Shown here piece after piece: positions 35,547 to 54,331 of a stretch of DNA of 64,000 nucleotides; position 1 is the first letter of the stretch, and every line of letters begins with the position of its first letter. The position numbers and the translations under genes are program-made. The stretch covers positions 1,798,001-1,862,000 of the forward strand of contig NZ_AP023396.1 in assembly GCF_014466955.1 (NCBI RefSeq), written 5' to 3'. A model generated the notes under the pieces. The model was not told where the DNA came from and searched no databases. It saw only the letters and a list, made by a program, of their open reading frames with translations. Origin of the DNA: Nocardia wallacei (GTDB taxonomy: Bacteria > Actinomycetota > Actinomycetes > Mycobacteriales > Mycobacteriaceae).

Positions 35547-35734
35547 TCGGCCGCCTGTTGGCTGACCTCGGTGGGCACCTCCAGATTCGGTACCGTCGCT
35601 TACGACCATGACGGCCTCCTACTCGGTCAGGGCTACTATGACCCGCTATCGCCCGGGACGACGATCATCCCGGACGGGCTGCCGAGCGGGAAATTAGCTG
35701 GTGAAGGCCGCTGTTCGCGCGGCACTATTGTCCG
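35547..35734. other. Intergenic region with a coding remnant
   Basis: A plus-strand frame at about 35600-35700 reads VAYDHDGLLLGQGYYDPLSPGTTIIPDG without start or stop of its own, as if it were a leftover of a deleted gene. No complete gene or clear promoter was seen. Confidence 0.35.
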
Positions 35735-36673: not shown

Positions 36674-36690
36674 GCGCAGCGCGGTCCGCT

Positions 36691-37419
36691 ATGACCGGTG
36701 GTGTGAACACGAGGTACGAAGTCGAACATGCGCAGCGGATCGCCGCCGCGCATGACGACCTGGAGCGGCACGGTGCCGCGGTGGTGTCCTGGCTCTTTCC
36801 CGCGTCAGTTCGGTATGCGATTGCGGCTGAGGCCATCTGGTTGGCGGAGCAGTTGGGCGTCCGTCGGGACTTGGCTTTCGCCGAGACAGGTTTCACGCCT
36901 CGCCGGATGAGGAACGTGAGGCGGGCGCAGATCGCGGAGAGCGGAGTTGTGATCCGGGAGACGTATGCATCACCCGAGGTCGCCGAGGTTGTGGCTGCCG
37001 TGGCCGGTCAAGCTGTGTATTCATGCCCGTATGAGCCCGAACAGTTCGTGGTTACCCAGCTGGACCGGGTGGGTGACACGCATGGATGGCATTGGGACGA
37101 TTACAGTTTCGCGCTGGTGTGGGTGGCCGAATGCCCGGACACCGTTGACGGCGGATTCGTCGAGTGTGTCCCGGGCACGGTGTGGGATAAGCAGCAGCCG
37201 GGCATCGAGCAGGTACTTCGTGATCGCGCGATCCACCGGCTGGAGGCCGGTCCGGGACAGGTGTATCTCATGCGGGCGAGTACGACGCTGCATCGGGTGC
37301 ACCCGATTCGGCGGGGCCGCCGCACGATTGTGAACATGGCGTTCGCGGCGGAGGATGAATTGTCGCGGCCCGTATCGCACGAGACGATGGACGCACTGTG
37401 GTCCGAGCCTGGGGATTGA
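36691..37419 (+). CDS. BesD/HalD-like Fe(II)/2-oxoglutarate oxygenase with intact H-x-D
   Basis: 242 residues. The iron site reads HGWHWDDYSF, giving His-x-Asp; the distal His and the 2-oxoglutarate Arg lie in TTLHRVHPIRRGRRTIVNMAF. The arrangement FALVWVAECPDTVDGGFVECVPGTVWDKQQP matches the HalD/BesD/ArpA group that acts on free amino acids. In the halogenases of that group the Asp is replaced by Gly to make room for chloride. Here the Asp is present, so hydroxylation is the expected reaction. The ATG at 36691 is used; a GTG at 36670, overlapping the kinase stop, would add seven residues. Confidence 0.75.
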   Translation: MTGGVNTRYEVEHAQRIAAAHDDLERHGAAVVSWLFPASVRYAIAAEAIWLAEQLGVRRDLAFAETGFTPRRMRNVRRAQIAESGVVIRETYASPEVAEVVAAVAGQAVYSCPYEPEQFVVTQLDRVGDTHGWHWDDYSFALVWVAECPDTVDGGFVECVPGTVWDKQQPGIEQVLRDRAIHRLEAGPGQVYLMRASTTLHRVHPIRRGRRTIVNMAFAAEDELSRPVSHETMDALWSEPGD

Positions 37420-37431
37420 GCGGAGGAAACC

Positions 37432-38226
37432 TTGCCGGTTGAGAGCGTCACATTGGGATCAGTGGACGGTGTGCGGCTCGACGCAGCGGTCCATATGGCA
37501 TCCGTTCCGGCCAAGGGGGTCGTGCTGCTGGTGCACGGGATCACTGTGGATATGGACGAGGGCGGTGGGATGTTCGTCCGCTTGGCCGAGCGACTGACCG
37601 CTGTGGGATTTGATGTCGTGCGGTTCTCGTTCCGGGGGCATGGAAACAGCGGTGGGACGCAACGCGGAGTGACCATTGCTGGCGAGTGCCTGGATCTGGA
37701 GGCTGCGGTGCAGTTCCTCCAGGGGCGGTTTCCGGGCCGGTTTTCGATTGTGGCGGCTAGTTTCGGGGCCGTGTCCACGGTGCTGTCGCTGCCGTGGCTT
37801 GCTGATGGGCTTGATCGGTTGGTGCTGTGGAATCCTGTCCTCGACCTGCGGCATACGTTCCTGGAGCCGGATTTGGCGTGGGGTGAAGAGAACTTCGGCG
37901 CGTCGCAGCGCAAACTATTGCACGACACCGGAGTCCTGGTGGTCGACGGGGAATTCGAACTCGGCCGCGTGTTGTTCAGCGAGTTCGCCCACTACGACCC
38001 ACTGGCACGATTCCTCGACAGCACCGTGCCGTCGCTGATCGTCCATGGAGACCGTGACACCGCGGTCTCCTACGAGATTTCCGCTCGGGCCGCGATGTCG
38101 AGGCCGAATACGGCGCTGCGTACCATCGCTGGTTCGGATCACGGCTTCGACTCGCGGGAGCGCGAAGATCAGGCGATCTCGGAGACGGTTGACTGGCTGG
38201 TCGGCCAGGTCGCGCCCGCCTCGTGA
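37432..38226 (+). CDS. Alpha/beta hydrolase
   Basis: 264 residues from the TTG at 37432, which has GGAGGAAACC just upstream. GVVLLVHGITVDMDEGG carries the oxyanion region; FSFRGHGNSGGT follows; the nucleophile elbow is the variant VAASFGAV. Late motifs are VPSLIVHGDRDTAVSYE with Asp and SDHGFDSRERE with His. It belongs to the serine aminopeptidase/acylglycerol-lipase-like hydrolases. The elbow (A-S-F-G) lacks the canonical G-x-S-x-G first Gly but keeps Ser. It follows the oxygenase by 12 bases and overlaps the next gene. Confidence 0.75.
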   Translation: MPVESVTLGSVDGVRLDAAVHMASVPAKGVVLLVHGITVDMDEGGGMFVRLAERLTAVGFDVVRFSFRGHGNSGGTQRGVTIAGECLDLEAAVQFLQGRFPGRFSIVAASFGAVSTVLSLPWLADGLDRLVLWNPVLDLRHTFLEPDLAWGEENFGASQRKLLHDTGVLVVDGEFELGRVLFSEFAHYDPLARFLDSTVPSLIVHGDRDTAVSYEISARAAMSRPNTALRTIAGSDHGFDSREREDQAISETVDWLVGQVAPAS

Positions 38227-38885
38227 CTCCCAGGGACCTGCACGGGCCGATTCGGCTCGGTGATGATGTGATCATCGGCGAGCACTGCGTTCTGGGATGC
38301 CCGAAGGAAACGCGTCTGCGGGAAGCTCAACGTGGGCGATGGTCGGCGGGTACTCCTGTCGTGATCGGAGATCGGAGTCTGCTGTTCAACCAGGTCATCA
38401 TCCAGGAAGGCACAGCTCTTGGCATGGAGTGCGTGGTAGAAGACCGGGCACGGATCGGGTACGGGTGTGTGATCGGCGACCGGACCCGGGTCGTCCACGG
38501 CGCCTACATCTGTGATCGCGTCACGATCGGCGCGGACGCGTGTGTCGCTGGGTTCGTTTGCGATGCGACGGTGATCGGTGACCGCGCGACCGTGATGGGC
38601 GAGCTGGTCCACGAGTACACGAGTCCGCATCTGGGTTGGTGGGGAGTGGATGAAGAACCGCCCGTGGTCGAGGCGGATTCGGTGGTCGGGTTTGGTGCAC
38701 GAGTGGTCGGCGGCGTCCGGATCGGGCCTCGCAGCTACGTCGCGGCCGGCGCGGTCGTGACCAAGAACGTGCCGAGTGAGCACGTCGTCACCGGCGTCAA
38801 TGTTCACACGCCGATCGGCGAGTGGCCCGGTAAACGTCTTTCGGCGCTGATCGAACACTGGACGGCACCGCGACCGATGCGGTGA
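38223..38885 (+). CDS. Left-handed beta-helix (hexapeptide) transferase
   Basis: 220 residues from the GTG at 38223, overlapping the hydrolase stop (GTGA). Many hexapeptide turns are visible (GDDVIIGEHCVLG, VVEDRARIGYGCVIGDRTRVVHGAYICDRVTIGADACVAG, AVVTKNVPSEHVVTGV). These build the trimeric beta-helix of acyl- and acetyltransferases such as sugar O- or N-acetyltransferases. The late PAVVTKNVP-like segment is typical of sugar acyltransferases. Last gene of the row, 13 bases from the converging GT25 gene. The acceptor is unknown. Confidence 0.75.
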   Translation: MTPRDLHGPIRLGDDVIIGEHCVLGCPKETRLREAQRGRWSAGTPVVIGDRSLLFNQVIIQEGTALGMECVVEDRARIGYGCVIGDRTRVVHGAYICDRVTIGADACVAGFVCDATVIGDRATVMGELVHEYTSPHLGWWGVDEEPPVVEADSVVGFGARVVGGVRIGPRSYVAAGAVVTKNVPSEHVVTGVNVHTPIGEWPGKRLSALIEHWTAPRPMR

Positions 38886-38898
38886 TCGAAGCCGCGCA

Positions 38899-39633
38899 TC
38901 ACCACCGAATGAAGTCGGAATTCTCGGTGTCGCTGCCGGCGTCGTCCTTCGGTCGTTGTGTGACCAGCGGCGGATCGAACGCTAGCGCGGTGAGTCGCGG
39001 TGCGAACCGTGCCCGCACATCGGGTCGTGGATGTGGTGTGTAGAGGGCGGGAAGGAACTCGTCGACCGGCACGATGGCCTCGGTGAGTTCGGTGGACAGT
39101 GCGGTACGCAGGCCACTGCGAGTGAGCAGATAGGCGTAGCTGCAGTGGCTGTAGCCGGGGTGGACGATCCCGGGAACCGGCGTAGGGGTGTCCGGCCGGA
39201 GCAGGTCGCGCCCGAGGTACAGCATGTCGAATGCGATATCGACTTCGTCGATCAGGTTCAGGGTCTGGAGAAGGCGTGGTGCGAATTCCGGTGGGAGGGT
39301 CGCGTCGTCTTCGAGGATCAGAGTGTACGGGGCTGCGCTGTGCTTCTCGGCGTGGTTCCAGCATGCGAGATGAGCGAGAGTGCAGCCTATTTCGCCGTAT
39401 TTGAGCGGTCGATTCCACCACGGGTTGTCGGAGTCGATTTGCCAGTCGAACAGCTTGATTCCAAGCGCCTGGAGGTCGCTGGTGGCGAGTTGCCGGCCGT
39501 CGATGACCACGTCGAGGTCCGAGGTGTAGGTGACCGTCATTGCCGAAGGTAGCCGGGCGCTGATCCATGCTCGGCGGTCTTTCCGCCGTGGCAGATTCAC
39601 GACATAGGTGGCGATGTCGTCCAGATTCGTCAC
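38899..39633 (-). CDS. Glycosyltransferase family 25 (LPS-biosynthesis/procollagen type)
   Basis: 244 residues from the GTG at 39633. The GT25 signatures are clear: YVVNLPRRKDRRAW at the N-terminus, KYGEIGCTLAHLACWNHA, the metal-binding LILEDDATLPPEF, and IVPVDEFLPALY. Members transfer hexoses from nucleotide sugars to surface glycans or to hydroxylated residues in proteins. A partner for the nearby iron hydroxylase is conceivable (hydroxylate, then glycosylate) but this is inference. The start overlaps the stop of the preceding regulator gene by four bases. Confidence 0.82.
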   Translation of the reverse strand: MTNLDDIATYVVNLPRRKDRRAWISARLPSAMTVTYTSDLDVVIDGRQLATSDLQALGIKLFDWQIDSDNPWWNRPLKYGEIGCTLAHLACWNHAEKHSAAPYTLILEDDATLPPEFAPRLLQTLNLIDEVDIAFDMLYLGRDLLRPDTPTPVPGIVHPGYSHCSYAYLLTRSGLRTALSTELTEAIVPVDEFLPALYTPHPRPDVRARFAPRLTALAFDPPLVTQRPKDDAGSDTENSDFIRW

Positions 39634-40850
39634 GCCGTTTGCCCGGGGGAGCAGCGGTGATGGCAGGTGAAGCGTTTGGTGTTGTCGATCACGACTCCCC
39701 AGTTCGCGCCGTGGGGGCGGGACATGAGCAGCAGGGGCTCCATGACGGTGAGGTCGGCGACGTCGGTGATGCCGCCGACGCGACGGGCTTCGGTGACCAC
39801 GACGAAGTCATCCTGACCGACGTGGTCGGAGAGGTATTCGACATTGGTGGGTCCTCGTCGTGGATCGAGTAGTGCGCGGGCCGCGCCGAGGACCCCGAGG
39901 GTGAGGCACCCGCCCAGCAGTAGCGCGGTGGTTCCCTGCACGGTGAGCCGGGTGAGCACGGCGAGGTCTTCGATCAGCTCGCCACCGGGTGTCCACCGTG
40001 GAGCCATACAGAGGTTGTCCAGTTCGGGTACGACGAGCGGGTCGTCCTCACCGAGCGGATTCGCATCAAAGTAGAAGGGTAACTGAGGGAGGAACTCCCG
40101 GTATTTGGCGTTCCACGGTGGGCCGCCGATCACCACGAGAACCTCGACCTGGGTATCGAAGTACTCCGAGGGCGCGAAGTCGCGCACAACCGCGGTGGGA
40201 GCGAGTTGCGCCAGTTGGGTGCGGACGAAGATCAATGTGTCCAAGTCAGCGAACTTGGCATACCGCAGGTAGTTCCGATCCTGTGGTGACGCATACTCTG
40301 GACGTTCGTCCACGGGGATTTCGGAGCAGACAATGTCGACGCCACCGCTAGGACGCAGGCCCCAGAACCGGCGCACAGCATCGTAGGGATCCTGTTTGCT
40401 GGCCCGGCCGTGGTGGCTCGGGCTGCGGTCGATGGCCTGCGTCTGTGCCCCGTCAGGAGCCGACGAGATCGTTACCAGGAGATAAGCCAGGGTGTCGAGG
40501 GCTTGGTCGGAACGGCGGCGCACGGTCTTGACCGCGCACTTGAGGTGCTGGGCCAGGGACTCTTGCCTGTCGGTGAGCGTCGGGTAACTGTGGTCAGGTC
40601 GAACGTTGAAATCCACTTCGGCGTAGACCCGCTCGCTCTCGGTGAGCTGACCGATCGCCTGACGCAGGATTGCGGCGAGATGTTCGATGTGTTCGGCAGA
40701 GCCAGGCTCGGTGTCGGAGTCGCGGCACAGATATGCCTGCACAGGTTCGTCGATGATGGTGAGCAGTGCTGTGGGCCGCGCCAATCCGAGTCCGCGGCGC
40801 ACCCGTCTCAAGCTGTCCTTCACCTGGTCGATAGAGGGCGGCGCCAGCAT
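39630..40850 (-). CDS. Putative regulator: helix-turn-helix plus unrecognised sensor domain
   Basis: 406 residues. Residues 60-125 contain LTESERVYAEVDFNV, then RQESLAQHLKCAVKTVRRRSDQALDTLAYLL, which fits a helix-turn-helix as found in actinobacterial regulators. The C-terminal 240 residues are alpha/beta with FADLDTLIFVRTQLAQL, VEVLVVIGGPPWNAKYREFL and FVVVTEARRVGGIT, a nucleotide-binding or Rossmann-like pattern I cannot name. It is divergent from the peptide gene at 41092, with TGTCCA boxes beginning two bases upstream of its start, and so could control itself and the peptide cluster. That is inference. Confidence 0.5.
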   Translation of the reverse strand: MLAPPSIDQVKDSLRRVRRGLGLARPTALLTIIDEPVQAYLCRDSDTEPGSAEHIEHLAAILRQAIGQLTESERVYAEVDFNVRPDHSYPTLTDRQESLAQHLKCAVKTVRRRSDQALDTLAYLLVTISSAPDGAQTQAIDRSPSHHGRASKQDPYDAVRRFWGLRPSGGVDIVCSEIPVDERPEYASPQDRNYLRYAKFADLDTLIFVRTQLAQLAPTAVVRDFAPSEYFDTQVEVLVVIGGPPWNAKYREFLPQLPFYFDANPLGEDDPLVVPELDNLCMAPRWTPGGELIEDLAVLTRLTVQGTTALLLGGCLTLGVLGAARALLDPRRGPTNVEYLSDHVGQDDFVVVTEARRVGGITDVADLTVMEPLLLMSRPHGANWGVVIDNTKRFTCHHRCSPGQTA

Positions 40851-40851
40851 C

Positions 40852-40996
40852 TGTCCACCTTATGTCCAGCGAAGGCGAATGCGACATCGGGTTTCCCGAG
40901 CGGCCGTACTACCTGTGTCCAGAAAATGTCCACTCCAGTCCAGGGTGTCCAGAAACTCGGGATGCAGCAGGGATAGCACATACAGCGCAGTGGACA
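40852..40996. promoter_or_regulatory. Array of TGTCCA boxes in the divergent control region of the peptide cluster
   Basis: TGTCCA at 40852, 40863, 40916, 40927 and 40946, and the inverted TGGACA at 40991. The first two and the next two pairs are each exactly 11 bp apart; TGTCCAGAAA recurs 30 bp apart (40916 and 40946). All lie between the divergent starts at 40850 and 41092. Repeats in helical register suggest cooperative binding of one regulator. Confidence 0.55.
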
Positions 40997-41091
40997 GACA
41001 CTCGAATCGTGGCTGATCGAAAATCTGTTCGGAAGTAGCAGGATTCGTGCACTCCAGCCACCGTCCAGGAGACCGACGGAAGGGAAAAGTC

Positions 41092-41184
41092 ATGTCGGAG
41101 CACGCCACCACCACGGCCGAGCGTGGGGAGTACGAAGCCCCCAAGGTGGAGACGAAATCGATGATCAGCCGCCAGTGCGACTGA
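41092..41184 (+). CDS. Candidate RiPP precursor peptide, 30 residues
   Basis: A 30-codon gene starting at 41092 with AAGGGAAAAGTC just upstream. The peptide has a hydrophilic leader (MSEHATTTAERGE), then YEAPKVE, then a short basic and polar end, TKSMISRQCD. Y-x-x-P followed by a small hydrophobic residue is the motif with which lasso-type and related leaders bind PqqD-like recognition domains, and the next two proteins both carry such a domain. Cys29 next to the C-terminus is the only Cys and a likely modification site. The stop is two bases before an in-frame ATG and 67 bases before the best start of the next gene. Identification as a precursor is inference, strongly supported by context. 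Confidence 0.65.
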   Translation: MSEHATTTAERGEYEAPKVETKSMISRQCD

Positions 41185-41251
41185 GATGACAACCCTGGTC
41201 GGCCGCGGTGTGGTCGGCCAGGGACCGGCGGCAACAACAAGGGGTGGTCGA

Positions 41252-42256
41252 ATGCTGACCTTGTACGTGGGTGATCTCCACTTTTCGGGATGGTCGATGC
41301 GCGGTCGAGTCGCGGTGGCCGAGAAGGGCCTTCCAGTGGCCGAAAGGATCGTGGAGCTGGATTGGCCGATCCGGGAAAGTCCGGACGGGGTGCTGTTCGC
41401 CGGCGACGGGACCGACGAACGCGAGGCCGGTATCGGCTGCGCGTGTGATGCCGACGAACTCGCGGAAGCCGATGTCGAAGGCATTCTGGAGGACTCCGCG
41501 ATGTCGCTGCTGCCTCGGGTCCCGATTCTGGCCGACACCGAGACCGGAGCCGTTGCCGGAGATGTGGTCTCGATCGCCGAATACCTCGATGAAATCGCAC
41601 CGGACTCCGGTCCCAGCCTCATGGGCACCACGCGACGCCAACGGGCCTTGGTCCGCTCTATCTCCGCCTGGGCGAGTCACGACCTGCCGTACCTGCGCGA
41701 GGGCGCGTCCTACGCACGCTCGCTCCGTACCGCCCCCGGCATTCCTGGGCCCGGCGCGGTGGAGCAGGCACGGTGGCTGTGCGATGTAGTGTCCGGATTG
41801 TTGCGCCGTTCGGGCGGTCCGTTCCTCGTCGGAGACTTCGGGCTCGCGGATGTGATGGTGTCGACCTACTTCCAGCAGCTCCGCGGCTGGCATATCGGCA
41901 TCGACGACCCCACCGTGCGCGACTACGCGGGTCGACTGCTGGAACGACCGTCGGTCGCTGACCACATCGACCAGGCCCGCGCGATCTACCGGGCCATCGA
42001 CGAAGCCCCGACCGGGTCGCCGCAGTGGATCCTGCGCCACTACCGCTATCACCCGGGCAAGCAATTGCTGCACGACTGGCAACGCGACCGCTGCGAACAA
42101 CTGGTCAACACCACCGCCGCGGAGGCAGTACAGCTGGCCTATCAGGGTCTCGACCTCGAGCAGATCACGCAGACGCTCGCCCAAACCTATGAGGTGCCGC
42201 CGGAGCGCGTTGCCGACGACGTCACCACGTTGTTCGCGCGGCTATCACCCGCCTGA
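41252..42256 (+). CDS. Glutathione-transferase-fold protein fused to a PqqD-like RiPP recognition domain
   Basis: 334 residues from the ATG at 41252, which has AAGGGG at good spacing and opens directly with the GST fold; an upstream in-frame ATG at 41186 is possible. Residues 1-110: thioredoxin-like part with LYVGDLHFSGWSMRGRVAVAEKGLPV, the cis-Pro segment RVPIL, and VSIAEYLDEI. Residues 115-245: helical GST part (RRSGGPFLVGDFGLADVMVSTYF). Residues 255-332: YRYHPGKQLL, VNTTAAEAVQLAYQGLDLEQITQTLAQTYEVPPERVADDV, which follows the PqqD/RRE pattern. The fusion should bind the leader peptide and act on the core or on a thiol adduct. I know no characterised protein of this design. Confidence 0.75.
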   Translation: MLTLYVGDLHFSGWSMRGRVAVAEKGLPVAERIVELDWPIRESPDGVLFAGDGTDEREAGIGCACDADELAEADVEGILEDSAMSLLPRVPILADTETGAVAGDVVSIAEYLDEIAPDSGPSLMGTTRRQRALVRSISAWASHDLPYLREGASYARSLRTAPGIPGPGAVEQARWLCDVVSGLLRRSGGPFLVGDFGLADVMVSTYFQQLRGWHIGIDDPTVRDYAGRLLERPSVADHIDQARAIYRAIDEAPTGSPQWILRHYRYHPGKQLLHDWQRDRCEQLVNTTAAEAVQLAYQGLDLEQITQTLAQTYEVPPERVADDVTTLFARLSPA

Positions 42257-42280
42257 CCGCTCGACGCGAGGAGCATCGCT

Positions 42281-43675
42281 ATGCCCGCCACCCTGTCCCG
42301 GGCCCTGACCCAGCAGCTGAGATACCGTGCCGACCTCGGCCTGCTGTTCGACCCACACACCGGCACCTTCCATCGACTCCGCAACGCGGTCGCCGAATCG
42401 ATGGTGTCCCTGATGTTCTCCGGCGCCGATGACGACACCGTCATCGGCGATATCGCGCAGCGCTACAACGCCGCCCCCTCACGCGTCGCCGCCGACGCCG
42501 CCGACCTGGTCGCCACCCTGACCTCCCCGCAGCCAGCAGCCGTCCAGGACGACGGCCGCGGATCGTTGCTGGGCGTCGACAAGCGGTTCGACACGAAGCT
42601 GGACTTCCCGCTGCGGCTGGAAATCGAGCTCACCGCCGTATGCAACTGGGCGTGCGGATTCTGCTACAACGTGTGGAAGATCGACCCGGACATGAGCGAC
42701 GCCGAGGTCCGGCGCGCGGTAAAAGCATTGCCGGAAAAGCATATTCCGACCGAGCTGGCATGCTCGATCCTCGACGAATGCGCAGACCGGGGCTGTTTCG
42801 TCATCCGCTACAGCGGCGGTGAGACACTGCTGCACCCCGATGCGATGGAGATCTTCGAACACGGTGGACGCCGCGGCCTGTACCAGGTGGTGTTCACCAA
42901 CGGCCACTTCCTCACCGCCGAACGGGCGAAGCGGCTGGCAGCAGCGAACGTGCGCTGTGTCCTCGTCTCGATCCACGGCGACCGCGACACCCACAACGAA
43001 CTGACCGGCCATCCCCGCGCCTATGACCGCGCGATCGACGCGATGCGACTGCTGATCGACGCCGGCATCACCGTGGTCGCGGAGATGACACTGGTCAAAA
43101 GCAACATCGACGGTGCGCTGGACGTCATCCGCGATGTGCATGCGCTCGGGGTGCGCGAGTTCGGCGTCATGCGCTACGTCCCGACCGGCCGCCACGACGA
43201 CCGCTACGGCATTCCGGTGTCGGTCACCATGCCGCTGATCACCCGCATCGACCACCTCCTTGCCACCGAATGCCCCGGGATGACGGTGGCGTGGCCCTGC
43301 GCGCAGAAGGTGTGCACCTCCGATACCGACACCCCGTTACGGTCCGACGACCCAACCCTCGGATTGCGGCTGTCGCAGATATCCGGGCACTGCGAATCGG
43401 GAATGGTGTGGGGCAGCGTCTCCTACGACGGCCGATTGCGGAACTGTCCGCACTCCAACGTCTACTTCGGTTCCCTGCACACCGAACCCCTCGCCGGAGC
43501 ATGGCCCGCCTTGACCGACGCCGTGCACGCAGCGGTCGCCACCAGGCCAACCTGCACCGGTTGCGCAGTCGCCGACGCCTGCCGCGGCGGCTGCCACCTG
43601 CCCAGCTTCTTCGCTCCAGCGACCGGAGTAGCGCTCGGAATGCCCGCTCTCGCCACCGATAGGATTTCCGGATGA
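42281..43675 (+). CDS. Radical SAM/SPASM peptide-modifying enzyme with N-terminal PqqD-like domain
   Basis: 464 residues. Residues 5-83 are PqqD-like (LLFDPHTGTFHRL, then VIGDIAQRYNAAPSRVAADAADLV). The radical SAM cluster is CNWACGFC (Cys121, 125, 128, CX3CX2C), with GGETLLHP as the SAM-binding GGE motif. The C-terminal SPASM region has many Cys (AWPCAQKVC, GHCESG, RNCPHSN, CTGCAVADACRGGC) for auxiliary iron-sulfur clusters. This build is that of RiPP-maturing enzymes that form carbon-carbon, thioether or related links in a leader-bound peptide. It starts 24 bases after the GST-RRE gene and overlaps the GlyRS start by four bases (ATGA). The bond formed cannot be predicted. Confidence 0.88.
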   Translation: MPATLSRALTQQLRYRADLGLLFDPHTGTFHRLRNAVAESMVSLMFSGADDDTVIGDIAQRYNAAPSRVAADAADLVATLTSPQPAAVQDDGRGSLLGVDKRFDTKLDFPLRLEIELTAVCNWACGFCYNVWKIDPDMSDAEVRRAVKALPEKHIPTELACSILDECADRGCFVIRYSGGETLLHPDAMEIFEHGGRRGLYQVVFTNGHFLTAERAKRLAAANVRCVLVSIHGDRDTHNELTGHPRAYDRAIDAMRLLIDAGITVVAEMTLVKSNIDGALDVIRDVHALGVREFGVMRYVPTGRHDDRYGIPVSVTMPLITRIDHLLATECPGMTVAWPCAQKVCTSDTDTPLRSDDPTLGLRLSQISGHCESGMVWGSVSYDGRLRNCPHSNVYFGSLHTEPLAGAWPALTDAVHAAVATRPTCTGCAVADACRGGCHLPSFFAPATGVALGMPALATDRISG

Positions 43676-46600
43676 CCACGGCAACTGCCCACAACGACAA
43701 CCCCTCCGTCCCCGTATCGATGCAGGAAGCGATCCTTCGTCTGCAGGCGTACTGGTCGCAGCGAGGTTGCCTGCTGGGTCAGCCGTTCAACACCGAGGTC
43801 GGTGCCGGCACGATGAACCCCGCCACGCTGCTGAGTGTGCTGGGTCCGGAAATCTGGAACGTCGCCTACGTCGAACCATCCGTACGTCCCGACGACTCTC
43901 GATACGGTAAGAACCCGAACCGCTTGCAGACCCACACCCAGTTCCAGGTGATACTCAAACCTGAACCGGGTGATCCGCAGGAGTTGTACCTGGGTTCGCT
44001 GGCCGCGCTCGGTATCGACCTCGATGCCCACGATGTGCGGTTCGTGGAGGACAACTGGGCTCAGCCGGCGATCGGGGCGTGGGGTCTGGGCTGGGAAGTC
44101 TGGCTCGACGGTATGGAGATCACCCAGTTCACCTACTTCCAACAGGTCGCGGGACAGAACCTCGACCCGATCCCGGTCGAGATCACCTACGGCCTCGAGC
44201 GGATCCTGATGGCGATCCAGGGCGTCACACACTTCGAGCACATCGCCTACGCGCCCGGCGTCAGCTACGGCGAAGTGTTCGGCCAGTCTGAGTACGAGAT
44301 GTCGCGCTACTACCTCGACGACGCCGACATCGACACCACCCGTGGCCTGCTCGCCGCGTACTCGGCCGAAGCCGACCGGATGATCACCACCCGGCTGCCG
44401 GTCCCTGCGCATGTACATGTCCTGAAATCCAGCCACGCATTCAACATTCTGGATTCGCGCGGTGCGGTGAGTACAGCCGAGCGCGCGAAGTGGTTCGCGG
44501 TGATGCGCAAGCAATCCCGCGAGATCGCCGCCCTGTGGACCGACTTACGTGCGGAGGCCGGGTATCCGCGCGGAGTACACGCCCCGCCGCCGCTGGCCAC
44601 TTCTCCCGTCGATCCCGCCACGATCACTTCAGCACCCGGATCGGTGCTGCTGTTCGAGATCGGCACCGAGGAACTACCGCCGCATGTCGTGACCGCGAGC
44701 ATTTCCAGCGTGCGCGCCACACTCATCGAACTCCTTGATTCCACTGCCCTGCCGCATGGTGAGATCACCGTGCAGGCGACCCCACGCCGGATCGGCGTGC
44801 GAGTCGAGGGCATCGCCGATAGGGAACCCGACAGCGTGAACGTGCGCCGGGGCCCGAAGGTCGCCGCAGCCTACGATGCCGACGGTAAATCCACTCCGGC
44901 TCTCGCCGGTTTCCTTCGTGCGCAGGGTGTTTCGGCCGATGATCTGCAACGGATCGAAGTCGGCGGTGCCGAGCACGTCGCGGTCGAGAGCACTCGCGCC
45001 GGCCGTTCGGCGGCAGTGGTACTCACCGATGTCCTGTCCCGGCTCACCCTGTCGTTGCGGGCGGACAAGAACATGCGCTGGCGTGATCCGGAATTGAGTT
45101 TCTCCCGCCCTATCCGATGGCTCACCGCGCTACTCGGCGACCAGATCCTCCCGATCACCGCCGGCACATTGGTAGCGGGCCGCAGCACCCGAGGCCACCG
45201 CCAGTCCGCTACACCGACGTTCGATCTCCCTGCCGCCGACCACTATCTCCCAGTACTCGAGGCCGCGGGAATCGTCGTCGACCCGGTCGAGCGCCGCGCA
45301 CGCGTCGTGTCCTCGGCCGCCGCTCTGGCTGAGGCCGCGAACGGCCGGATCGACGTCGACGGCGACGCCGACCTGATCGATGAGATCACCAACCTCGTCG
45401 AATCCCCGACCGGTATCCTGGGCCATTTCGACCCGAAATACCTCGACCTGCCAGAACAAATCCTCATCACTGTGATGCGCAAGCATCAGCGTTACCTCCC
45501 GGTCCGCTCCGGCGCGGGTGACCTGCTGCCGGTCTTCGTGACGATGGCCAACGGCGACTGCGACGCCGACGTCGTCCGCGGCGGCAACGAAAACGTGCTC
45601 CGCGCCCGCTTCGAGGATGCCGCGTTCTTCTGGAATGTCGACCTGACCATCGCCCCTGACCAGTTCCGGGCCCGGCTCGGGGCACTCATGTTCCACGAGA
45701 AGGTCGGCACCATGGCTGACCGCGCCGACCGCATTGCCACAGCGGCCTCCATACTTGGCACCCGCAGTGGCCTCCCTGCTGCTGACGCGGCCACCTTGAC
45801 CCGCGCTGGTGCCCTCGCGAAGTTCGACCTCGCCACCCAAATGGTGATCGAAATGACCTCCCTCGCCGGCACTATGGCGCGCGAATACGCGACCAAGTCC
45901 CGCGAATCCGAACCAGTGGCCACGGCACTGTGGGAAATGGAGCTGCCCCGCTCGTCCGGAGACGACCTCCCCACCACCACACCCGGCGCGCTCCTTGCAT
46001 TGGCAGACCGCTTCGACCTCCTGGTCGCGATGCTCGCCGTCGGCGCCAAACTCACCGGCAACGCCGACCCCTACGGCCTGCGCCGCGCGGCAGCCGGAAT
46101 CCTGGCAATCCTGCGCGACCACCCCGAACTCGCCGACGTCACCATCCCAATCGGCCTCAGGACCGCCGCCGACCAACTCCGCGGCCAGGGCCTCACCATC
46201 GACCCCGCGGTCCTGTCCACTGCTGAGGAACTGATCACCACCCGCTACGAGCAGCGACTCCGCGACGAAGCAGTCGGTCCAGGACTCATCGCCGCAGTCC
46301 GTCCCTCCGCCGAGGCCCCGCATCGCGCGGACATGTTGATCGACCAGATCAGCGAAGCCAGCGAGGACAACCGATTCGCCGACCTTGTGGAAGGACTGCA
46401 ACGGATCATGCGGATCCTGCCTCCCGCCGCGCCCACCACCTACGACCCCGCTAGGCTCATCGGCCCCGCCGAGCAGCAGCTCCTGACCGTGATGGGTTCG
46501 GTGCCTGTTGCCGATGGCAAGCCGTTGACCGAATGGATCCCCCACGGCCACACCCTGATCGAGCCACTGACCACGTTTTTCGACGATGTCCTGGTCATGG

Positions 46601-46719
46601 CCGACGACCCCGCCGACCGCACCGCACGGCTGGGTCTACTGGCCGCGATCCTGGCGAAAGCTCCAGCCGGAATCGACTGGCGAGAAGTCCACCAAATGCT
46701 GCAGAAGCGGGATGGATGA
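43672..46719 (+). CDS. glyQS: Glycyl-tRNA synthetase, fused alpha and beta subunits, within the RiPP operon
   Basis: 1015 residues, full length for a fused tetrameric-type enzyme. Residues 12-300 are the catalytic alpha part: QEAILRLQAYWSQRGC, GAGTMNPAT, PSVRPDDSRYG, and the motif 3 region EITYGLERILMAIQGV. Residues 325-1010 are the beta part: LLFEIGTEELPPHVV, the HD-like and anticodon-binding regions, RMGLLAAIL-type end. It attaches glycine to tRNA(Gly) in the cytoplasm. Actinobacteria normally rely on the unrelated alpha2-type GlyRS, so this is probably a second enzyme. Its start overlaps the radical SAM stop, so both are made together. It may be a self-resistance copy or supply Gly-tRNA to the pathway. 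Confidence 0.92.
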   Translation: MTTATAHNDNPSVPVSMQEAILRLQAYWSQRGCLLGQPFNTEVGAGTMNPATLLSVLGPEIWNVAYVEPSVRPDDSRYGKNPNRLQTHTQFQVILKPEPGDPQELYLGSLAALGIDLDAHDVRFVEDNWAQPAIGAWGLGWEVWLDGMEITQFTYFQQVAGQNLDPIPVEITYGLERILMAIQGVTHFEHIAYAPGVSYGEVFGQSEYEMSRYYLDDADIDTTRGLLAAYSAEADRMITTRLPVPAHVHVLKSSHAFNILDSRGAVSTAERAKWFAVMRKQSREIAALWTDLRAEAGYPRGVHAPPPLATSPVDPATITSAPGSVLLFEIGTEELPPHVVTASISSVRATLIELLDSTALPHGEITVQATPRRIGVRVEGIADREPDSVNVRRGPKVAAAYDADGKSTPALAGFLRAQGVSADDLQRIEVGGAEHVAVESTRAGRSAAVVLTDVLSRLTLSLRADKNMRWRDPELSFSRPIRWLTALLGDQILPITAGTLVAGRSTRGHRQSATPTFDLPAADHYLPVLEAAGIVVDPVERRARVVSSAAALAEAANGRIDVDGDADLIDEITNLVESPTGILGHFDPKYLDLPEQILITVMRKHQRYLPVRSGAGDLLPVFVTMANGDCDADVVRGGNENVLRARFEDAAFFWNVDLTIAPDQFRARLGALMFHEKVGTMADRADRIATAASILGTRSGLPAADAATLTRAGALAKFDLATQMVIEMTSLAGTMAREYATKSRESEPVATALWEMELPRSSGDDLPTTTPGALLALADRFDLLVAMLAVGAKLTGNADPYGLRRAAAGILAILRDHPELADVTIPIGLRTAADQLRGQGLTIDPAVLSTAEELITTRYEQRLRDEAVGPGLIAAVRPSAEAPHRADMLIDQISEASEDNRFADLVEGLQRIMRILPPAAPTTYDPARLIGPAEQQLLTVMGSVPVADGKPLTEWIPHGHTLIEPLTTFFDDVLVMADDPADRTARLGLLAAILAKAPAGIDWREVHQMLQKRDG

Positions 46720-46804
46720 CACTCGTCGACCCGGCACCGCGCAGGCGGCTGGAGCCATGGCGGATCGCGACGTCATTGTCAGACGGTCAGAGCTTCCGTC
46801 ATGA
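46712..46804 (+). CDS. Possible small ORF overlapping the GlyRS end
   Basis: A 30-codon frame begins with the ATG at 46712, eight bases inside the GlyRS gene, and ends at 46804: MDDTRRPGTAQAAGA, then MADRDVIVRRSELPS. The overlap would allow coupled translation, but there is no separate ribosome binding site and no similarity to the peptide at 41092. It could equally be chance. Confidence 0.2.
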   Translation: MDDTRRPGTAQAAGAMADRDVIVRRSELPS

Positions 46805-46835
46805 GTTACCGCTGCCGCCGCGCGGGCCGCCGCCG

Positions 46836-47252
46836 TCAATTCGTGTTCGGCAGGAAATCGAATTCGCCGTCGCGGGCTCCGGCAACGAAGGCGGTCCATT
46901 CGCCATCGTCGAAGCGGAGCCTGATCGCGCCATCCGCAGTCTGGACGAGGGTGTCCGCTCCGTCCTTGCGGACATTGACGATGCCGTTGGCGCTGCGCGA
47001 GCCGCTGCGCGATTCGTCGATAAACGCGGTCCATGCGTGGAGATCGAAGGTGATCGTGCCGTGCGAGGGGTGCTTGCTGTGCCGCAGGTAGACGCGACTA
47101 TCGCGGGGGGCGACGTCCACGCAGTTCTCACCGGCCCCGCTGTGGCTGGATGTCCGCCAGCCGGCGGAGGGGGCGACCTCGACGCAGTTCTCGCCGTTGC
47201 TGCTGTAGCTGGATGTCCGCCATTCGAGGCGGGTGCCGGTGTTCACCGTCAC
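46836..47252 (-). CDS. Tandem DUF397 protein
   Basis: 138 residues with two DUF397 units: LEWRTSSYSSNGENCVEVAP at the N-terminus and a second unit GWRTSSHSGAGENCVDVAPRDSRVYLRHSK just after it, then IRLRFDDGEWTAFVAGARDGEF at the end. DUF397 proteins nearly always partner DUF5753/XRE regulators and are thought to act with them like an antagonist pair (BldB/WhiJ-type). Its start overlaps the stop of such a regulator gene by four bases. The doubled unit is less common than the single one. Confidence 0.82.
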   Translation of the reverse strand: MTVNTGTRLEWRTSSYSSNGENCVEVAPSAGWRTSSHSGAGENCVDVAPRDSRVYLRHSKHPSHGTITFDLHAWTAFIDESRSGSRSANGIVNVRKDGADTLVQTADGAIRLRFDDGEWTAFVAGARDGEFDFLPNTN

Positions 47253-48118
47253 TCCTTGTCTGTCAGGGTGCTGATTCGGGCTCTGATGACTTCAGCGGAG
47301 TCGGACTCCGACAGCGCTGCCTCACAGAGCCGGTCAGCTGCCATTTTATACAACTGCACCTGGTCCTGTTCCTGCATGTACAGGGCGCCAGCCGGGTATT
47401 CGACATATCCGATCGATTGGGCATTGTCGAAGTTCAGCAGCATGAAGTCGCCGTCGAGTCCGTCGTGGACGGTGACGCTGAGCGGCATGATGTGCAGCTC
47501 GACGTTGTCGAGTTCCTGCAGTTCGAGTAGGCGCTCGAGTTGCGGCCGCATCACCGTAGAACCGCCGACCAGGCGATCGAGTACGACTTCCTCCAGGACG
47601 GCGCGATACCGCAGCGGGTTGTTTGCTGCGGTGAGGCGTTGTCGTGCCATCCGCGCCTCCACAACCTGAGGTGCATCGATCGGCGGAACTCTCAGGTTCC
47701 CCTGAAGAAGCGCCATTGCGTACTCGGGTGTCTGGAGCTGTCCTGGGAGCAGTGTCTGTTCGTAGGTGAATACCGAGGTCGCGAGCCCTTCGAGTCCGAC
47801 GAAGGTGCGGAACCAGTTCGGGAAGGCGTCGCCGAACGGCGCCCACCAGATTGTCTGGTCGGCCTGGGACGCGAGCGCGGCGAGGCGTGTGATGTGGACG
47901 TCGTCGGCGCCATAGAGCTTGAGTAGGTGAGTTACCTCGTCAGGTTGTTGCTGATTACGGCCCGATTCGAGGTAGTTGATCTTTGTCTGGGTGCAGCCGA
48001 GGTGTTCGCTGGCCTGGCGCTGTGACATGCGGGCTCGTTCCCGAGCGTCGCGTAACTCCCGGCCGATGAGGAACCGCAGGGCATTCGGATCTGACCGGTC
48101 CCATCCTGGCGTCGTCAT
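47249..48118 (-). CDS. XRE/DUF5753 regulator
   Basis: 289 residues from the ATG at 48118, which has GGAGG five bases upstream. Residues 12-65 are a helix-turn-helix (LIGRELRDARERARMSQRQASEHLGCTQTKINYLESGR). The rest is DUF5753 (TIWWAPFGDAFPNWFRTFVGLEGLATSVFTYEQTLLPGQLQTPEYA, ARQRLTAANNPLRYRAVLEEVVL, and so on). Such regulators form modules with DUF397 proteins in actinobacteria and affect development or secondary metabolism. It is divergent from 48296, with a perfect palindrome in between, a likely binding site. Confidence 0.88.
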   Translation of the reverse strand: MTTPGWDRSDPNALRFLIGRELRDARERARMSQRQASEHLGCTQTKINYLESGRNQQQPDEVTHLLKLYGADDVHITRLAALASQADQTIWWAPFGDAFPNWFRTFVGLEGLATSVFTYEQTLLPGQLQTPEYAMALLQGNLRVPPIDAPQVVEARMARQRLTAANNPLRYRAVLEEVVLDRLVGGSTVMRPQLERLLELQELDNVELHIMPLSVTVHDGLDGDFMLLNFDNAQSIGYVEYPAGALYMQEQDQVQLYKMAADRLCEAALSESDSAEVIRARISTLTDKE

Positions 48119-48191
48119 CGCGGCCTCCATTCATCGATCGTGCGTTAGCACCCTATCCCGCCTCTCAGGGTGGATCGCCCCATCCCTTGCG

Positions 48192-48209
48192 GCTGGTATA
48201 TATACCAGC
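48192..48209. promoter_or_regulatory. Perfect 18-bp palindrome, probable operator
   Basis: GCTGGTATATATACCAGC is exactly self-complementary and lies 74 bases upstream of the divergent XRE gene and 87 bases before the plus-strand gene at 48296. The AT core could also serve as part of a promoter, so a bound regulator would block transcription. Confidence 0.65.
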
Positions 48210-48295
48210 TACATTACTCTCAATGTCGTGGCATGAGTAACACATCAATACCGCGCACTCAGCGAGTGTTCGAGTGATCTCAGGAGTGATCAGCC

Positions 48296-48604
48296 ATGCA
48301 ACTTGTAACTGGAGCCGATACTGACCGGCTGTCCGCGTGGTATGTCGGGCAACAGTCGTGGACGTTGCCGTGGATGCAGGGCAGGACGGTGGACACCCTG
48401 GCCGCGAATGCGGCTGTTCATGCGGGTGAGGCACTACAGGCTGCGCCTCCACCCGGCGATCCCCGCTGGAGAGATATCCGCTTCGGTGCTGACGCGCTGG
48501 GGCTGACCGTCCATGAACTCGCGGTTGTACTGGGTGTCACCTGCACCATTCCTGATCTCCCACCGCGTCGTGCGCGGATCTGGCTACCGGGCGAGCGGAG
48601 GTGA
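48296..48604 (+). CDS. Hypothetical protein
   Basis: 102 residues. Tryptophan-rich N-terminus (LSAWYVGQQSWTLPWMQGRTVDTLAANAAVHAGEAL), then RWRDIRFGADALGLTVHELAVVLGVT and a basic end. No family recognised; the C-terminal segment is helical and could be a small adaptor. It starts downstream of the 18-bp palindrome and ends seven bases before the next gene, so it heads a short operon with the two resolvase-fold paralogues. Confidence 0.5.
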   Translation: MQLVTGADTDRLSAWYVGQQSWTLPWMQGRTVDTLAANAAVHAGEALQAAPPPGDPRWRDIRFGADALGLTVHELAVVLGVTCTIPDLPPRRARIWLPGERR

Positions 48605-48610
48605 GCGCGG

Positions 48611-49429
48611 GTGTTGTCGAACGCGGACCGAGAACCGTCGTTGATGTACGGGTACCTGCGCAAGGAACTGCTCGGTGACCACCAGAGCGATGTCGAACAT
48701 CGACTGCGGGATCTGGCTGGGCTGAACGGGTTCAATATCGCGGCCCTCTTCTGCGAGACGGGCGCGGGGACCGGTGCGTTGTGGCAGTTGATGCGGGCCA
48801 TCGAATCGACCGGTGCCCGCGATGTCGCCGTTCCGTCCGAAGCGCATTTGACTGCGGGCCGTAGTCAGCAGCGGACGAAGTTCCTCCACGATCTCGATGC
48901 CGTCGACGGCTTGCGTGTGTGGTGTTTGGACCTGAGCAACCGGTCGGTTGTGCTGAGCGGATTTCGCCGCAGCGTCGTCCTGCCGCGTGAGCGCACGTTG
49001 GCTCGACTCCTGCTGCGGACCGGTTCGGTGACTGTAGTGGAGGAGGCCCGCATGGACATCCTCAATACCCTGTCGAGAGCCAGGCTGCGGCACATGGTCG
49101 ACGACGTCGAACACTTCGTGCTATCTGCTCTGTCCGACTTCATACCCGCAGACAGCGGCGGCAATCCGCCGATCTTCGCCGATCTCACAGCCACGCTGCC
49201 GAATCTGACCGAGTCGATCGTTCTGACGGTGTGGCTGTTGCTTCGGGGCCCGGCGTTGGAGGTGCAGGTTCTTCGGTCGCCGATGCTTTCTCTCGAACCG
49301 ATCGGTCCCGACGTACTTGGCCCGGCAGCGGCTGGCCGACGCTCGCTACGCGGGGGCGCCCGAATCTCTTGGATCCGGCTGCCGATCGAGCCTGGTCAGT
49401 CACCGCTGGCGGCGGGGCGAGCATCATGA
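48611..49429 (+). CDS. Resolvase-fold protein without the catalytic serine motif
   Basis: 272 residues from the GTG at 48611. The first 110 residues follow the layout of a serine-recombinase N-terminal domain (LMYGYLRKELLG where recombinases have Y-x-R-x-S, then DVEHRLRDLAGLNGFNIAALF, and DVAVPSEAHLTAG where the domain's later strand lies), but the catalytic Ser is missing. Residues 110-272 are unassigned. It overlaps the next gene, a short paralogue sharing the PSEAHL strand, by four bases. The last 60 residues are poor in familiar patterns and may reflect a frameshift. Function unknown. Confidence 0.5.
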   Translation: MLSNADREPSLMYGYLRKELLGDHQSDVEHRLRDLAGLNGFNIAALFCETGAGTGALWQLMRAIESTGARDVAVPSEAHLTAGRSQQRTKFLHDLDAVDGLRVWCLDLSNRSVVLSGFRRSVVLPRERTLARLLLRTGSVTVVEEARMDILNTLSRARLRHMVDDVEHFVLSALSDFIPADSGGNPPIFADLTATLPNLTESIVLTVWLLLRGPALEVQVLRSPMLSLEPIGPDVLGPAAAGRRSLRGGARISWIRLPIEPGQSPLAAGRAS

Positions 49430-49761
49430 GGCGGGCATTGGGGATCGTCCGTCGCGATATCGCGGGGGTGGCGGCCGAAACGGTGGCTGCGGGGATCAGG
49501 GCGCTGGCGCGCGTGCACCGCATCCAGCTGGACGAGATCGTGTTTCGCGACTCCAGCGAAGGCTTGGTCCGGCTGCTCGCGAATCTGCCCGACTCGGTCG
49601 ATTTGGTGATGATTCCGTCGGAAGCCCACTTGGGCGCGTGGATTCCCGCCGCCCGGCGCACAGCTGAGGTGTGGTCGGTCGATCGGGGCGTGTGCTGGCC
49701 CCAGGGTGAAGGCAGGACGCGGTTGATATCGCGCCCCGATCGCCTGCGGGAGATCCGATGA
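49426..49761 (+). CDS. Short paralogue of the resolvase-fold protein
   Basis: 111 residues from the ATG at 49426. GIVRRDIAGVAAETVAAGIRALARVHRIQLDEIVF, LVRLLANLPDSVDLVMIPSEAHLGAWIPAARRTAEVWSVD aligns with the first domain of the upstream protein (PSEAHL in the same place), again without the Ser motif. It ends before a basic tail. Two adjacent, non-catalytic resolvase-like domains suggest DNA binding or a regulatory or nucleotide-sensing use of the fold rather than recombination. This is inference. Confidence 0.5.
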   Translation: MRRALGIVRRDIAGVAAETVAAGIRALARVHRIQLDEIVFRDSSEGLVRLLANLPDSVDLVMIPSEAHLGAWIPAARRTAEVWSVDRGVCWPQGEGRTRLISRPDRLREIR

Positions 49762-49790
49762 CATCTCTCGCGGGCCACACGGAGTATCCG

Positions 49791-50726
49791 CTATCGGTCG
49801 ACTTGGTCCGCCTCGTTCGCGAGGCCGGTTGCGACACATCGGAATCCGGTGTCGTCGTCGAGCATCGAATGCGCGGCGTCGTTGAATGCCGACGGTTCGC
49901 CTCGGTCGAAGGGGCTGGTGAAGGCACTGCCTTTGAGTTCGTACCGGCCGCTGGTGGTTTCGGTGGCGGTCCATTCCCAGGTGTTGTCGACGAGGTCGTA
50001 TACACCGAATGGACTGACACCGCTGGCGTAGGTCGCGACAGGGGTTGTCGTGCCAGGGCCGGAACCGCGAATATTGCATTTGGCTGGGGTCGGTTGGTTT
50101 CCCCAGGGCCAGACGTTGCCGCGGGTACCTCGAGCAGCTTTCTCCCACTGCTGGCTGGTCGGCAGGGACTTCTGGGCCCATCGGGCATAGGTGGCGGCGT
50201 CGTCCCGGCTCACCCAGACCACCGGGTGATCGGCGATCTCACGGGCCGGAGCCGGACCGCCCCAGTGGTGGGGTGCGGAATACCCTTGGGCCGCCACAAA
50301 TCTCGCGTAATCCGCGTTGGTGGTCGGGAAGACATCGATCCAGTACCCAGCCACCCATACGGGTTGGTCCTGTGGCCCCGCGAGGTAGATCCCTTCGGGA
50401 ATCCAGGTCATGAGCTTGCCGTCAGCGGGATGGCGGGTGTCGGTGCGTTGCTCAGGTACGTCGGTATCGCGGGCGTCGCTGAGGACGGCCGGGGATATCG
50501 CTTCGACGAACCGGGTCAGTTCGTCGCTGCCCAGCCGCGCCAGGATGGTGTCGAGTGCTGCTTGGTTGACCGGGCGGGGGCGGATGTTCTTGCCGCCGGC
50601 CTCCCAGCGGGAGATCAGCCGAGGATTGACGCCGATGTGTGCGGCGAATTCGGTGATACTCATTCGCCGTGCGTCTCGCAGTGCGCGCGCTTCGGCGCCG
50701 GTCCAGCTGCGGACCACGATGCCCAT
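49791..50726 (-). CDS. XRE helix-turn-helix fused to a SUMF1/FGE-type domain
   Basis: 311 residues. Residues 8-60 are a helix-turn-helix (ARALRDARRMSITEFAAHIGVNPRLISRWEAGG). Residues 105-300 are a formylglycine-generating-enzyme/C-type-lectin fold (IPEGIYLAGPQDQPVWVAGYWIDVFPTTNADYARFVAA, PVVWVSRDDAATYARWA, LPTSQQWEKAARG, GNVWPWGN, YDLVDNTWEWTATE, DTGFRCV). The paired Cys of true FGEs are absent from their usual region, so a binding or regulatory role is more likely than Cys oxidation. A DNA-binding/SUMF1 fusion may sense a ligand. It is followed on the other side by unrelated genes. Confidence 0.75.
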   Translation of the reverse strand: MGIVVRSWTGAEARALRDARRMSITEFAAHIGVNPRLISRWEAGGKNIRPRPVNQAALDTILARLGSDELTRFVEAISPAVLSDARDTDVPEQRTDTRHPADGKLMTWIPEGIYLAGPQDQPVWVAGYWIDVFPTTNADYARFVAAQGYSAPHHWGGPAPAREIADHPVVWVSRDDAATYARWAQKSLPTSQQWEKAARGTRGNVWPWGNQPTPAKCNIRGSGPGTTTPVATYASGVSPFGVYDLVDNTWEWTATETTSGRYELKGSAFTSPFDRGEPSAFNDAAHSMLDDDTGFRCVATGLANEADQVDR

Positions 50727-50792
50727 CGCCTGTGTGCTCCCTTCCCCGAGCGGTGGGTTCCGAGCCTAGTCACAATAGTGGCGCAAAGCAGG

Positions 50793-54260: not shown

Positions 54261-54331
54261 CGAGGTGAGCCCCGGCGAACGCCAACCCAAATGAGCATCA
54301 AATGTGCTGATGGACAAGGAGATCCGTAACC

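Follow-up and report, generated by a model that had tools for sequence, protein, structure and literature searches.

Organisation of the locus

We analysed a 64,000-nucleotide stretch of the Nocardia wallacei genome (RefSeq assembly GCF_014466955.1, contig NZ_AP023396.1, positions 1,798,001 to 1,862,000; hereafter 'the window'). Positions 41092–46719 of the window carry a single plus-strand operon of four genes. In order, these encode a short precursor peptide, a protein with a glutathione S-transferase (GST) fold and a C-terminal recognition element for ribosomally synthesised and post-translationally modified peptides (RiPP recognition element, RRE; the protein is called GST-RRE below), a radical S-adenosylmethionine (SAM) enzyme with an RRE of its own, and a fused alpha-beta glycyl-tRNA synthetase (GlyRS). 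The identical gene order, which a preliminary description of this DNA had proposed looking for in other actinobacteria, recurs in other Nocardia. It is highly probable that these genes encode a RiPP-type pathway. With less assurance, we also favour a fuller reading in which the pathway makes an antibiotic-type RiPP, is carried on a conjugative element and targets GlyRS, with the second GlyRS providing self-resistance. The features of the locus are as follows.

41078–41084, plus strand: ribosome-binding site GGAAGGG of the peptide gene, read directly; relatives are preceded by purine-rich stretches
41092–41184, plus strand: precursor peptide gene of 30 codons, ATG at 41092 and TGA at 41182–41184, from direct reading, conservation and gapless alignment
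within 41092–41184, plus strand: peptide anchor YEAP(K)V, invariant Q-C, then Asp
41193–41223, plus strand: GC-rich RNA hairpin between the peptide and GST-RRE genes (fold z = −2.05)
41252–42256, plus strand: GST-fold protein with C-terminal RRE, 334 residues from ATG 41252 (Pfam, alignment, model and Foldseek)
42014–42253, plus strand: RRE (PqqD-like) domain of GST-RRE (Pfam PqqD, model and homology to the radical SAM RRE)
42281–43675, plus strand: radical SAM enzyme with SPASM-type cysteines and an N-terminal RRE (PF04055, E = 6.4e-19)
42290–42532, plus strand: RRE domain of the radical SAM enzyme, residues 4–84 (profile–profile match to the RRE of GST-RRE)
43672–46719, plus strand: fused alpha-beta GlyRS, the second GlyRS of the genome and the proposed self-resistance enzyme (NF011499; co-occurrence)

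The precursor peptide

The first gene had been described as a 30-codon reading frame with its own ribosome-binding site, and the positions of GGAAGGG and ATG given above, together with the translation (MSEHATTTAERGEYEAPKVETKSMISRQCD), agree with that description. Related radical SAM genes in Priestia, S. rostri, G1360 (a genome of the S. rostri family), a Clostridia metagenome-assembled genome (MAG), an IMG/VR contig and the Geobacillus plasmid pLW1071 are also preceded by short genes that share this peptide's plan. The plan is Y-x-x-P-x-[VI]-x8-Q-C followed, before the stop codon, by N, D, H or S-F. The alignment comprises 16 of the 22 distinct peptides (6 of the 12 from Nocardia loci of the present type, called class 1) and spans Nocardia, Bacillales, Staphylococcaceae and a Clostridia MAG. 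In all 16 the span from Tyr to Cys is free of gaps and the distance is constant at 15 residues, a spacing that may be taken as a measured reach from the RRE to the active site. Both the YxxP element and the Cys near the C-terminus, whose conservation had been set beforehand as the point on which the proposal could fall, are invariant in the peptides found.

Twelve residues (E, Y, E, P, E, T, K, I, S, R, Q and C) are fixed, and nine of them use more than one codon among the 10 distinct class-1 Nocardia tails (20 codons each), which indicates purifying selection on the peptide. The motif Y..P.[VI]..QC.{1,2}* occurs once in the six-frame translation of the window, in none of 60 shuffled windows, and nowhere in 303,974 codons of other Nocardia DNA, part of which consists of copies of the element. 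Retention of the peptide gene at homologous loci had likewise been anticipated: of the 16 Nocardia genomes whose class-1 radical SAM gene is intact, 14 also have an intact peptide gene. The exceptions are G508, considered below, and N. anaemiae (L012, on the same contig as G408), where the peptide core is present and an in-frame start codon is absent.

A hairpin comparable to that at 41193–41223 follows the peptide stop codon in seven of the eight loci folded (z −1.5 to −4.4), the eighth, L014, having no comparable hairpin there (z +0.2). The hairpin may act as a partial terminator or a stabiliser, raising the peptide message above the enzyme message. An open reading frame finder placed the start of GST-RRE at 41186, which would put the hairpin inside the gene. 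We rejected this start in favour of 41252, because the conserved block of a 24-sequence alignment opens there and the hairpin fills the space upstream; one database protein (P0079) is annotated as longer than the start of this block.

Two putative modifying enzymes with related RREs

The second gene was initially read as a GST-fold protein with a C-terminal PqqD-like domain, and Pfam bears this out, with matches above cut-off to GST_N_2 (E = 1.1e-6) and, for the RRE, to PqqD (E about 1.6e-6 to 2e-6). The AlphaFold model (predicted local distance difference test, pLDDT, 90.9) shows a GST body, followed at the C-terminus by a unit built from three strands and then three helices. Its top Foldseek matches are bacterial GSTs (best E 7.6e-10), some with bound glutathione, so that Pfam, the model and Foldseek all assign the GST fold. 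Family alignments (19 of 29 database proteins in one and 26 in another, plus the window and locus proteins; alignment A3 is without L048) show invariant positions that include an FSxWSxR motif, Cys63 and a VP loop. The Glu-Ser pair that forms the usual glutathione-site motif of GSTs is not kept: the S-E-S of 4isd aligns with G-D-V of GST-RRE, and across the family the Glu is mostly Asp and the Ser mostly Val or Ile, with Ser in L046. In Actinobacteria and Bacillales glutathione is largely replaced by other thiols, and the peptide's own Cys is therefore a plausible thiol substrate for the GST-fold domain.

An alignment of 30 radical SAM sequences (29 of the 64 database relatives plus the window protein) shows no variation at the CxxxCxxC motif (C121, C125, C128) or at a second set of cysteines, C-x17-C and C-x2-C-x5-C-x3-C. 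The second set resembles the cysteine pattern of SPASM auxiliary clusters, with the last lone Cys left unassigned, and the Pfam SPASM model itself matches only 6 of the 30. The N-terminal PqqD-like domain that had been claimed for this enzyme stands by profile-to-profile comparison, as the radical SAM fold does by PF04055, whereas the protein's own match to PqqD is weak (E = 0.011) and lies below the cut-off. Across the two families, the PqqD profile finds 26 of the 30 GST-RREs; among the 30 radical SAM proteins it finds 23 (E up to 0.01) and misses, with others, that of the window. When the radical SAM N-terminus is compared directly with the RRE of GST-RRE, profile to profile, the match has a probability of 98.6% (E = 1e-15), and the radical SAM model (pLDDT 86.7) begins with the same order of strands and helices. 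This homology suggests that the two RREs bind the same leader.

The radical SAM enzyme also matches the MftC and PqqE profiles, far below their cut-offs (61.3 against 265 bits for the mycofactocin maturase, TIGR03962). These matches, and a short precursor with its conserved residues near the C-terminus, would suit a peptide that serves as scaffold for a redox cofactor or a metal-binding molecule of the mycofactocin or pyrroloquinoline quinone (PQQ) kind, with the GlyRS unrelated to the action of the product. We consider this quite unlikely, since the patchy distribution of the pathway (16 intact in 149 Nocardia genomes), its occurrence on a Geobacillus plasmid, the conjugation-type genes in the window and a second GlyRS in both classes of locus all suit a weapon better than a housekeeping cofactor.

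An additional GlyRS beside the pathway

The preliminary description of the fourth gene as a fused alpha-beta GlyRS overlapping the radical SAM stop codon is confirmed by NF011499 (1306 bits against a cut-off of 1244) and by the position of its ATG at 43672. The housekeeping alpha2 GlyRS of the genome sits elsewhere (C394). Alpha-beta GlyRS genes occur in 19 of 149 Nocardia genomes: in all 16 genomes with an intact class-1 radical SAM gene the synthetase is adjacent by coordinates, and the other 133 contain two intact copies and one degraded copy (Fisher p = 1.2e-19, treating the degraded copy as absent and without correction for kinship). Intact stand-alone genes, with no pathway, are found in the Nocardia genomes G478 and G518 (L072, L073). 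These fit a resistance gene kept by non-producers and could also be relics. In G234 a degraded alpha-beta GlyRS lies beside a radical SAM remnant, and G522 has a shortened radical SAM gene and a GlyRS remnant.

A second class of locus, in five Nocardia genomes, pairs a related pathway with a GlyRS of the other type; one of the five, G411, also carries class 1. The class-2 radical SAM protein is 33–38% identical to that of class 1 and the peptide ends in PPQCSF. A second radical SAM gene follows the first, with a PqqD domain in L061, the locus tested, and PhyH-type dioxygenases follow the class-2 genes in L061 and, by eye, in other loci of the class (L057–L061). A second alpha2-type GlyRS lies beside the peptide in all five genomes. 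Alpha2 GlyRS genes number two in each class-2 genome and one in each of the 28 other Nocardia genomes of the search. Across both classes, 21 of the 21 intact Nocardia loci found have an extra GlyRS alongside, that of class 1 being of a different type altogether from the class-2 alpha2 copy. The alpha-beta and alpha2 enzymes are treated as different forms in the relevant passages of PMC4938167 and PMC12208437.

In a tree built from 68 of 127 GlyRS rows, the class-2 alpha2 copies form one clade apart from 19 housekeeping copies (support 100/99). They differ from all 19 at eight positions, including S79A and N290S. All 19 housekeeping copies have Ser79, in an ASGH segment, and Asn290, as do 100 of the 103 close database relatives (E ≤ 1e-250); the three that lack them are themselves cluster GlyRS copies. 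In the passages of PMC12208437 that concern these regions, and with numbering transferred, a His and a Phe shortly after the Ser79 segment belong to the tRNA A76 site; the residues named in the GlyRS active site include Glu284 and Arg291, the latter being the neighbour of Asn290.

As other Nocardia genomes share up to 61 kb of nearly identical DNA around the locus, linkage could be co-inherited, and the GlyRS might be a passenger gene of mobile elements that lies beside the pathway by chance. Such an arrangement seems very improbable, because adjacency persists down to about 65% GlyRS identity and two GlyRS types adjoin two diverged pathway classes.

Two further observations concern class 2. 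A protein with helix-turn-helix and FGE domains and a class IV aminotransferase (49791–51572) lie near the class-1 locus of the window, and homologues about 65% identical lie near the class-2 locus L059. The Clostridia MAG locus L022 has a class-2-like peptide and two radical SAM genes, on a contig that ends just upstream.

Distribution outside Nocardia

The family is rare in the species sampled. At the E-value limits used, a search for the radical SAM enzyme in 396 genomes of the phylum returned this genome only, and the family was found in 1 of 348 genomes in the order of Priestia, namely the Priestia genome itself, and in 1 of 101 in the family of S. rostri. GST-RRE was found in this genome only among 397 of the order. 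No radical SAM homologue was found in phages, nor in any of 392 genomes of the genus of G558 (taken as Streptomyces), a search that had no positive control and is weak for that reason. Radical SAM relatives include proteins named Streptomyces, Nocardioides, Zoogloea and Azorhizobium, and one carrier of the pathway is the plasmid pLW1071. One relative, P0057, named as Staphylococcus pseudintermedius, represents 572 member sequences, and the pathway may therefore be widespread in this species. A transposase pair (L069, 9871–11912), IS21-like by eye, immediately follows the Staphylococcaceae locus.

Proposed mechanism

The following scheme is our inference as regards the sequence and chemistry of the reactions, the release step, GlyRS as the target and the role of the second GlyRS in resistance. 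Both RREs would bind the Y-x-x-P-x-[VI] strand of the peptide, presenting the Gln-Cys-X end to one enzyme first and then to the other. The radical SAM enzyme would use radical chemistry to modify the Cys, the last residue or a site close to either, after which the GST-fold domain would act on the peptide's own thiol, a step suggested by its conserved Ser-rich alpha1 motif, Cys63 and cis-Pro loop and by its altered glutathione motif. Release of a short C-terminal fragment would then yield a small product that interferes with glycyl-tRNA synthesis, and the neighbouring second GlyRS, being insensitive, would keep the producer alive. A more specific version, which we put forward tentatively and regard as doubtful, has Gln-Cys-X taking the place of glutathione in the GST site, as a ribosomally made substitute, while the leader occupies the RRE of the same enzyme; the radical SAM-modified C-terminal piece would be the GlyRS inhibitor, and the second GlyRS would be drawn from either of two types. 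The class-2 loci would have to manage without such a site.

The preliminary description had all four genes making one modified peptide. Part of that view is supported, namely a RiPP-type pathway with two mutually homologous RREs, a leader of YxxP type and a Cys conserved close to the C-terminus, and the refuting outcomes named in advance did not occur. A share of the GlyRS in making the peptide is not supported. Self-resistance suits the GlyRS better than biosynthesis because it is a second copy, comes in two types, one of them changed at otherwise constant residues, and survives alone; and if the gene is read in this way, the product should hit glycyl-tRNA synthesis. The synthetase could instead provide the Gly-tRNA from which a glycyl group is passed to the peptide, on the model of peptide aminoacyl-tRNA ligase (PEARL) pathways in which Gly-tRNA is a nitrogen donor. 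In favour of this, its start codon overlaps the radical SAM stop codon, and it is known that PEARLs attach glycine and that glycyl-tRNA can donate nitrogen (relevant passages of PMC12945691). Yet no PEARL/LanB or other family that uses aminoacyl-tRNA was found among the 31 window proteins scanned with Pfam, a subset of its open reading frames. Three Firmicute loci have the same modifying enzymes without a linked GlyRS, intact GlyRS genes persist without the pathway in two genomes, and a supplier need not change at constant core residues. We therefore judge this supply role unlikely.

The self-resistance reading itself has a number of observations weighing against it. The three Firmicute loci, which encode the same peptide, radical SAM enzyme and GST-RRE, have a major facilitator superfamily (MFS) transporter and no linked GlyRS, and a search of Priestia G916 and of G1360 for an alpha-beta GlyRS found none. 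Firmicute carriers without this enzyme would therefore need other protection, which we assume to be export. The idea that hosts with a native alpha-beta GlyRS drop the extra copy was discarded, as there are Priestia and Staphylococcaceae carriers without either. In G508, neither the peptide nor GST-RRE was found in the 20 kb examined, and the radical SAM and GlyRS genes are kept; at the class-2 loci the GST-RRE query had no match. As for the replacements in the class-2 GlyRS, those at positions 181 and 190 are common elsewhere (44 and 52 of the 103 relatives), K183M occurs in two other relatives, positions 226, 298 and 317 also differ in a few relatives, and the Thermus thermophilus enzyme has Gln in place of Asn290. 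Since the class-2 copies form one clade, the replacements may also reflect a single event and paralogue drift.

Relation to known systems

The mycofactocin and PQQ pathways (MftA/B/C and PqqA/D/E) likewise combine a short precursor, a PqqD-type RRE and a radical SAM enzyme, which in those pathways is of the SPASM kind. Unlike in those pathways, the RREs here are fused to both enzymes, one partner has a GST fold and a second GlyRS is linked, and NCBIfam scores fall far below the equivalog cut-offs. The best PDB relative of the radical SAM family is SkfB, a sactipeptide-type maturase (E = 1.1e-20), from whose system the present one differs in that its very short peptide has only one Cys, close to the end; the score against the SkfB family (TIGR04403) is 46.7 bits, where the cut-off is 300. 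Microcin C-like products are made by nucleotide attachment, not by radical SAM and GST-fold enzymes. They hit aspartyl-tRNA synthetase, unlike the GlyRS proposed here, and share with our proposal a ribosomal peptide that ends as a synthetase inhibitor (passages on these peptide-nucleotides in PMC9239234). A second synthetase inside the cluster, linked to self-resistance as we propose for GlyRS, has precedents in AcmD of ascamycin and SbzA of SB-203208 (relevant passages of PMC12945691). Those systems involve alanyl- and isoleucyl-tRNA synthetases and products other than ribosomal peptides, whereas here there is a GlyRS and a ribosomal peptide. In 3-thiaglutamate and other pearlins, as here, several RRE proteins act on one short scaffold peptide with a C-terminal Cys (passages of PMC7470986 and PMC12945691). 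The present locus differs in its ribosomally encoded Cys and its radical SAM and GST-fold enzymes, and in the lack of a PEARL among the window proteins scanned.

We found no description of this pathway, consistent with its having been proposed as undescribed; that novelty does not extend to the domain fusion. The passage on fusions in the RRE-Finder survey of 2020 lists RRE–GST fusions with the same domain fusion as here, uncharacterised, among potential novel RiPP clusters, as one of a number of RRE fusions yet to be explored (PMC7470986). It was the only report of such fusions found in the literature searched, and the passage is without the precursor, the radical SAM pairing and the GlyRS link, all three of which are present here. 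Searches for a RiPP with a glycyl-tRNA synthetase and a radical SAM enzyme found none, and searches for a natural-product GlyRS inhibitor gave none that we recognised among the matches listed, in a literature from which most subscription journals were beyond reach. The GlyRS passage of a 2021 review of synthetase inhibitors names only the synthetic glycyl-sulfamoyl adenosine (PMC7916415), and GlyRS is discussed as a prospective tuberculosis drug target in part of PMC12208437. If our reading is correct, the locus would represent a RiPP class in which one modifying enzyme has a GST fold and the linked spare copy allows the target to be predicted. Both target and chemistry are directly open to testing, since the peptide plan is constant across phyla and the GlyRS partner comes in two kinds.

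Mobile element and neighbouring genes

The window is 99.99–100% identical to stretches of three other Nocardia genomes (L099–L107), extending over 39,066 bases in G509, 61,263 in G411 and 36,761 in G431, lengths that are bounded by the DNA examined and by contig ends and from which alignments of 400 bases or fewer were dropped. The housekeeping GlyRS of this genome and that of G411 are only 86.3% identical, and the contrast with the near-identical window points to recent transfer of a large element. Conjugation-type genes in the window encode VirB4/TraG-like, coupling-protein-like and relaxase-like proteins. We read it as a recently spread, probably conjugative element. Parts of positions 30000–50000 match 39 plasmid records, none of which covers most of that span.

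Upstream of the peptide gene lies a group of accessory genes.

39630–40850, minus strand: divergent gene encoding 406 residues, possibly a regulator, accessory (Pfam gives a chance-level match only)
38899–39633, minus strand: glycosyltransferase family 25-like protein, accessory module (PF01755, E = 1.6e-13; near the 406-residue gene in relatives)
38223–38885, plus strand: hexapeptide-repeat acyltransferase-like protein, accessory module (Pfam Hexapep, E = 2.8e-19)
37432–38226, plus strand: alpha/beta hydrolase (S33-like), accessory, possibly a peptidase or esterase (Pfam Hydrolase_4, E = 8.7e-15)
36538–37419, plus strand: HalD/BesD-family Fe(II)/2-oxoglutarate enzyme with an HWD motif, accessory (Pfam HalD, E = 4.1e-91)

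The 406-residue gene adjoins the peptide gene in 13 of the 16 intact class-1 Nocardia genomes. Its absence from the other three led us to reject this module, from the HalD/BesD-family enzyme to the 406-residue protein, as the core of the pathway. The HalD/BesD-family enzyme scores under the NCBIfam BesD cut-off and is missing from some loci. Halogenases generally have Gly or Ala at the position of its HWD motif, and the enzyme is therefore perhaps an amino-acid hydroxylase.

Elsewhere in the window, about 1.2 kb (30025–31222) matches Rhodococcus plasmids at about 93% and encodes a PaaI thioesterase, a universal stress protein and a recombinase. The element also carries a tRNA-Thr (ggt) at 28632–28706. 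Positions 53325–63879 encode a methyltransferase, a SIS/PfkB/cytidylyltransferase fusion, an epimerase, a P450 and a carbamoyltransferase, by its looks a separate biosynthetic cluster.

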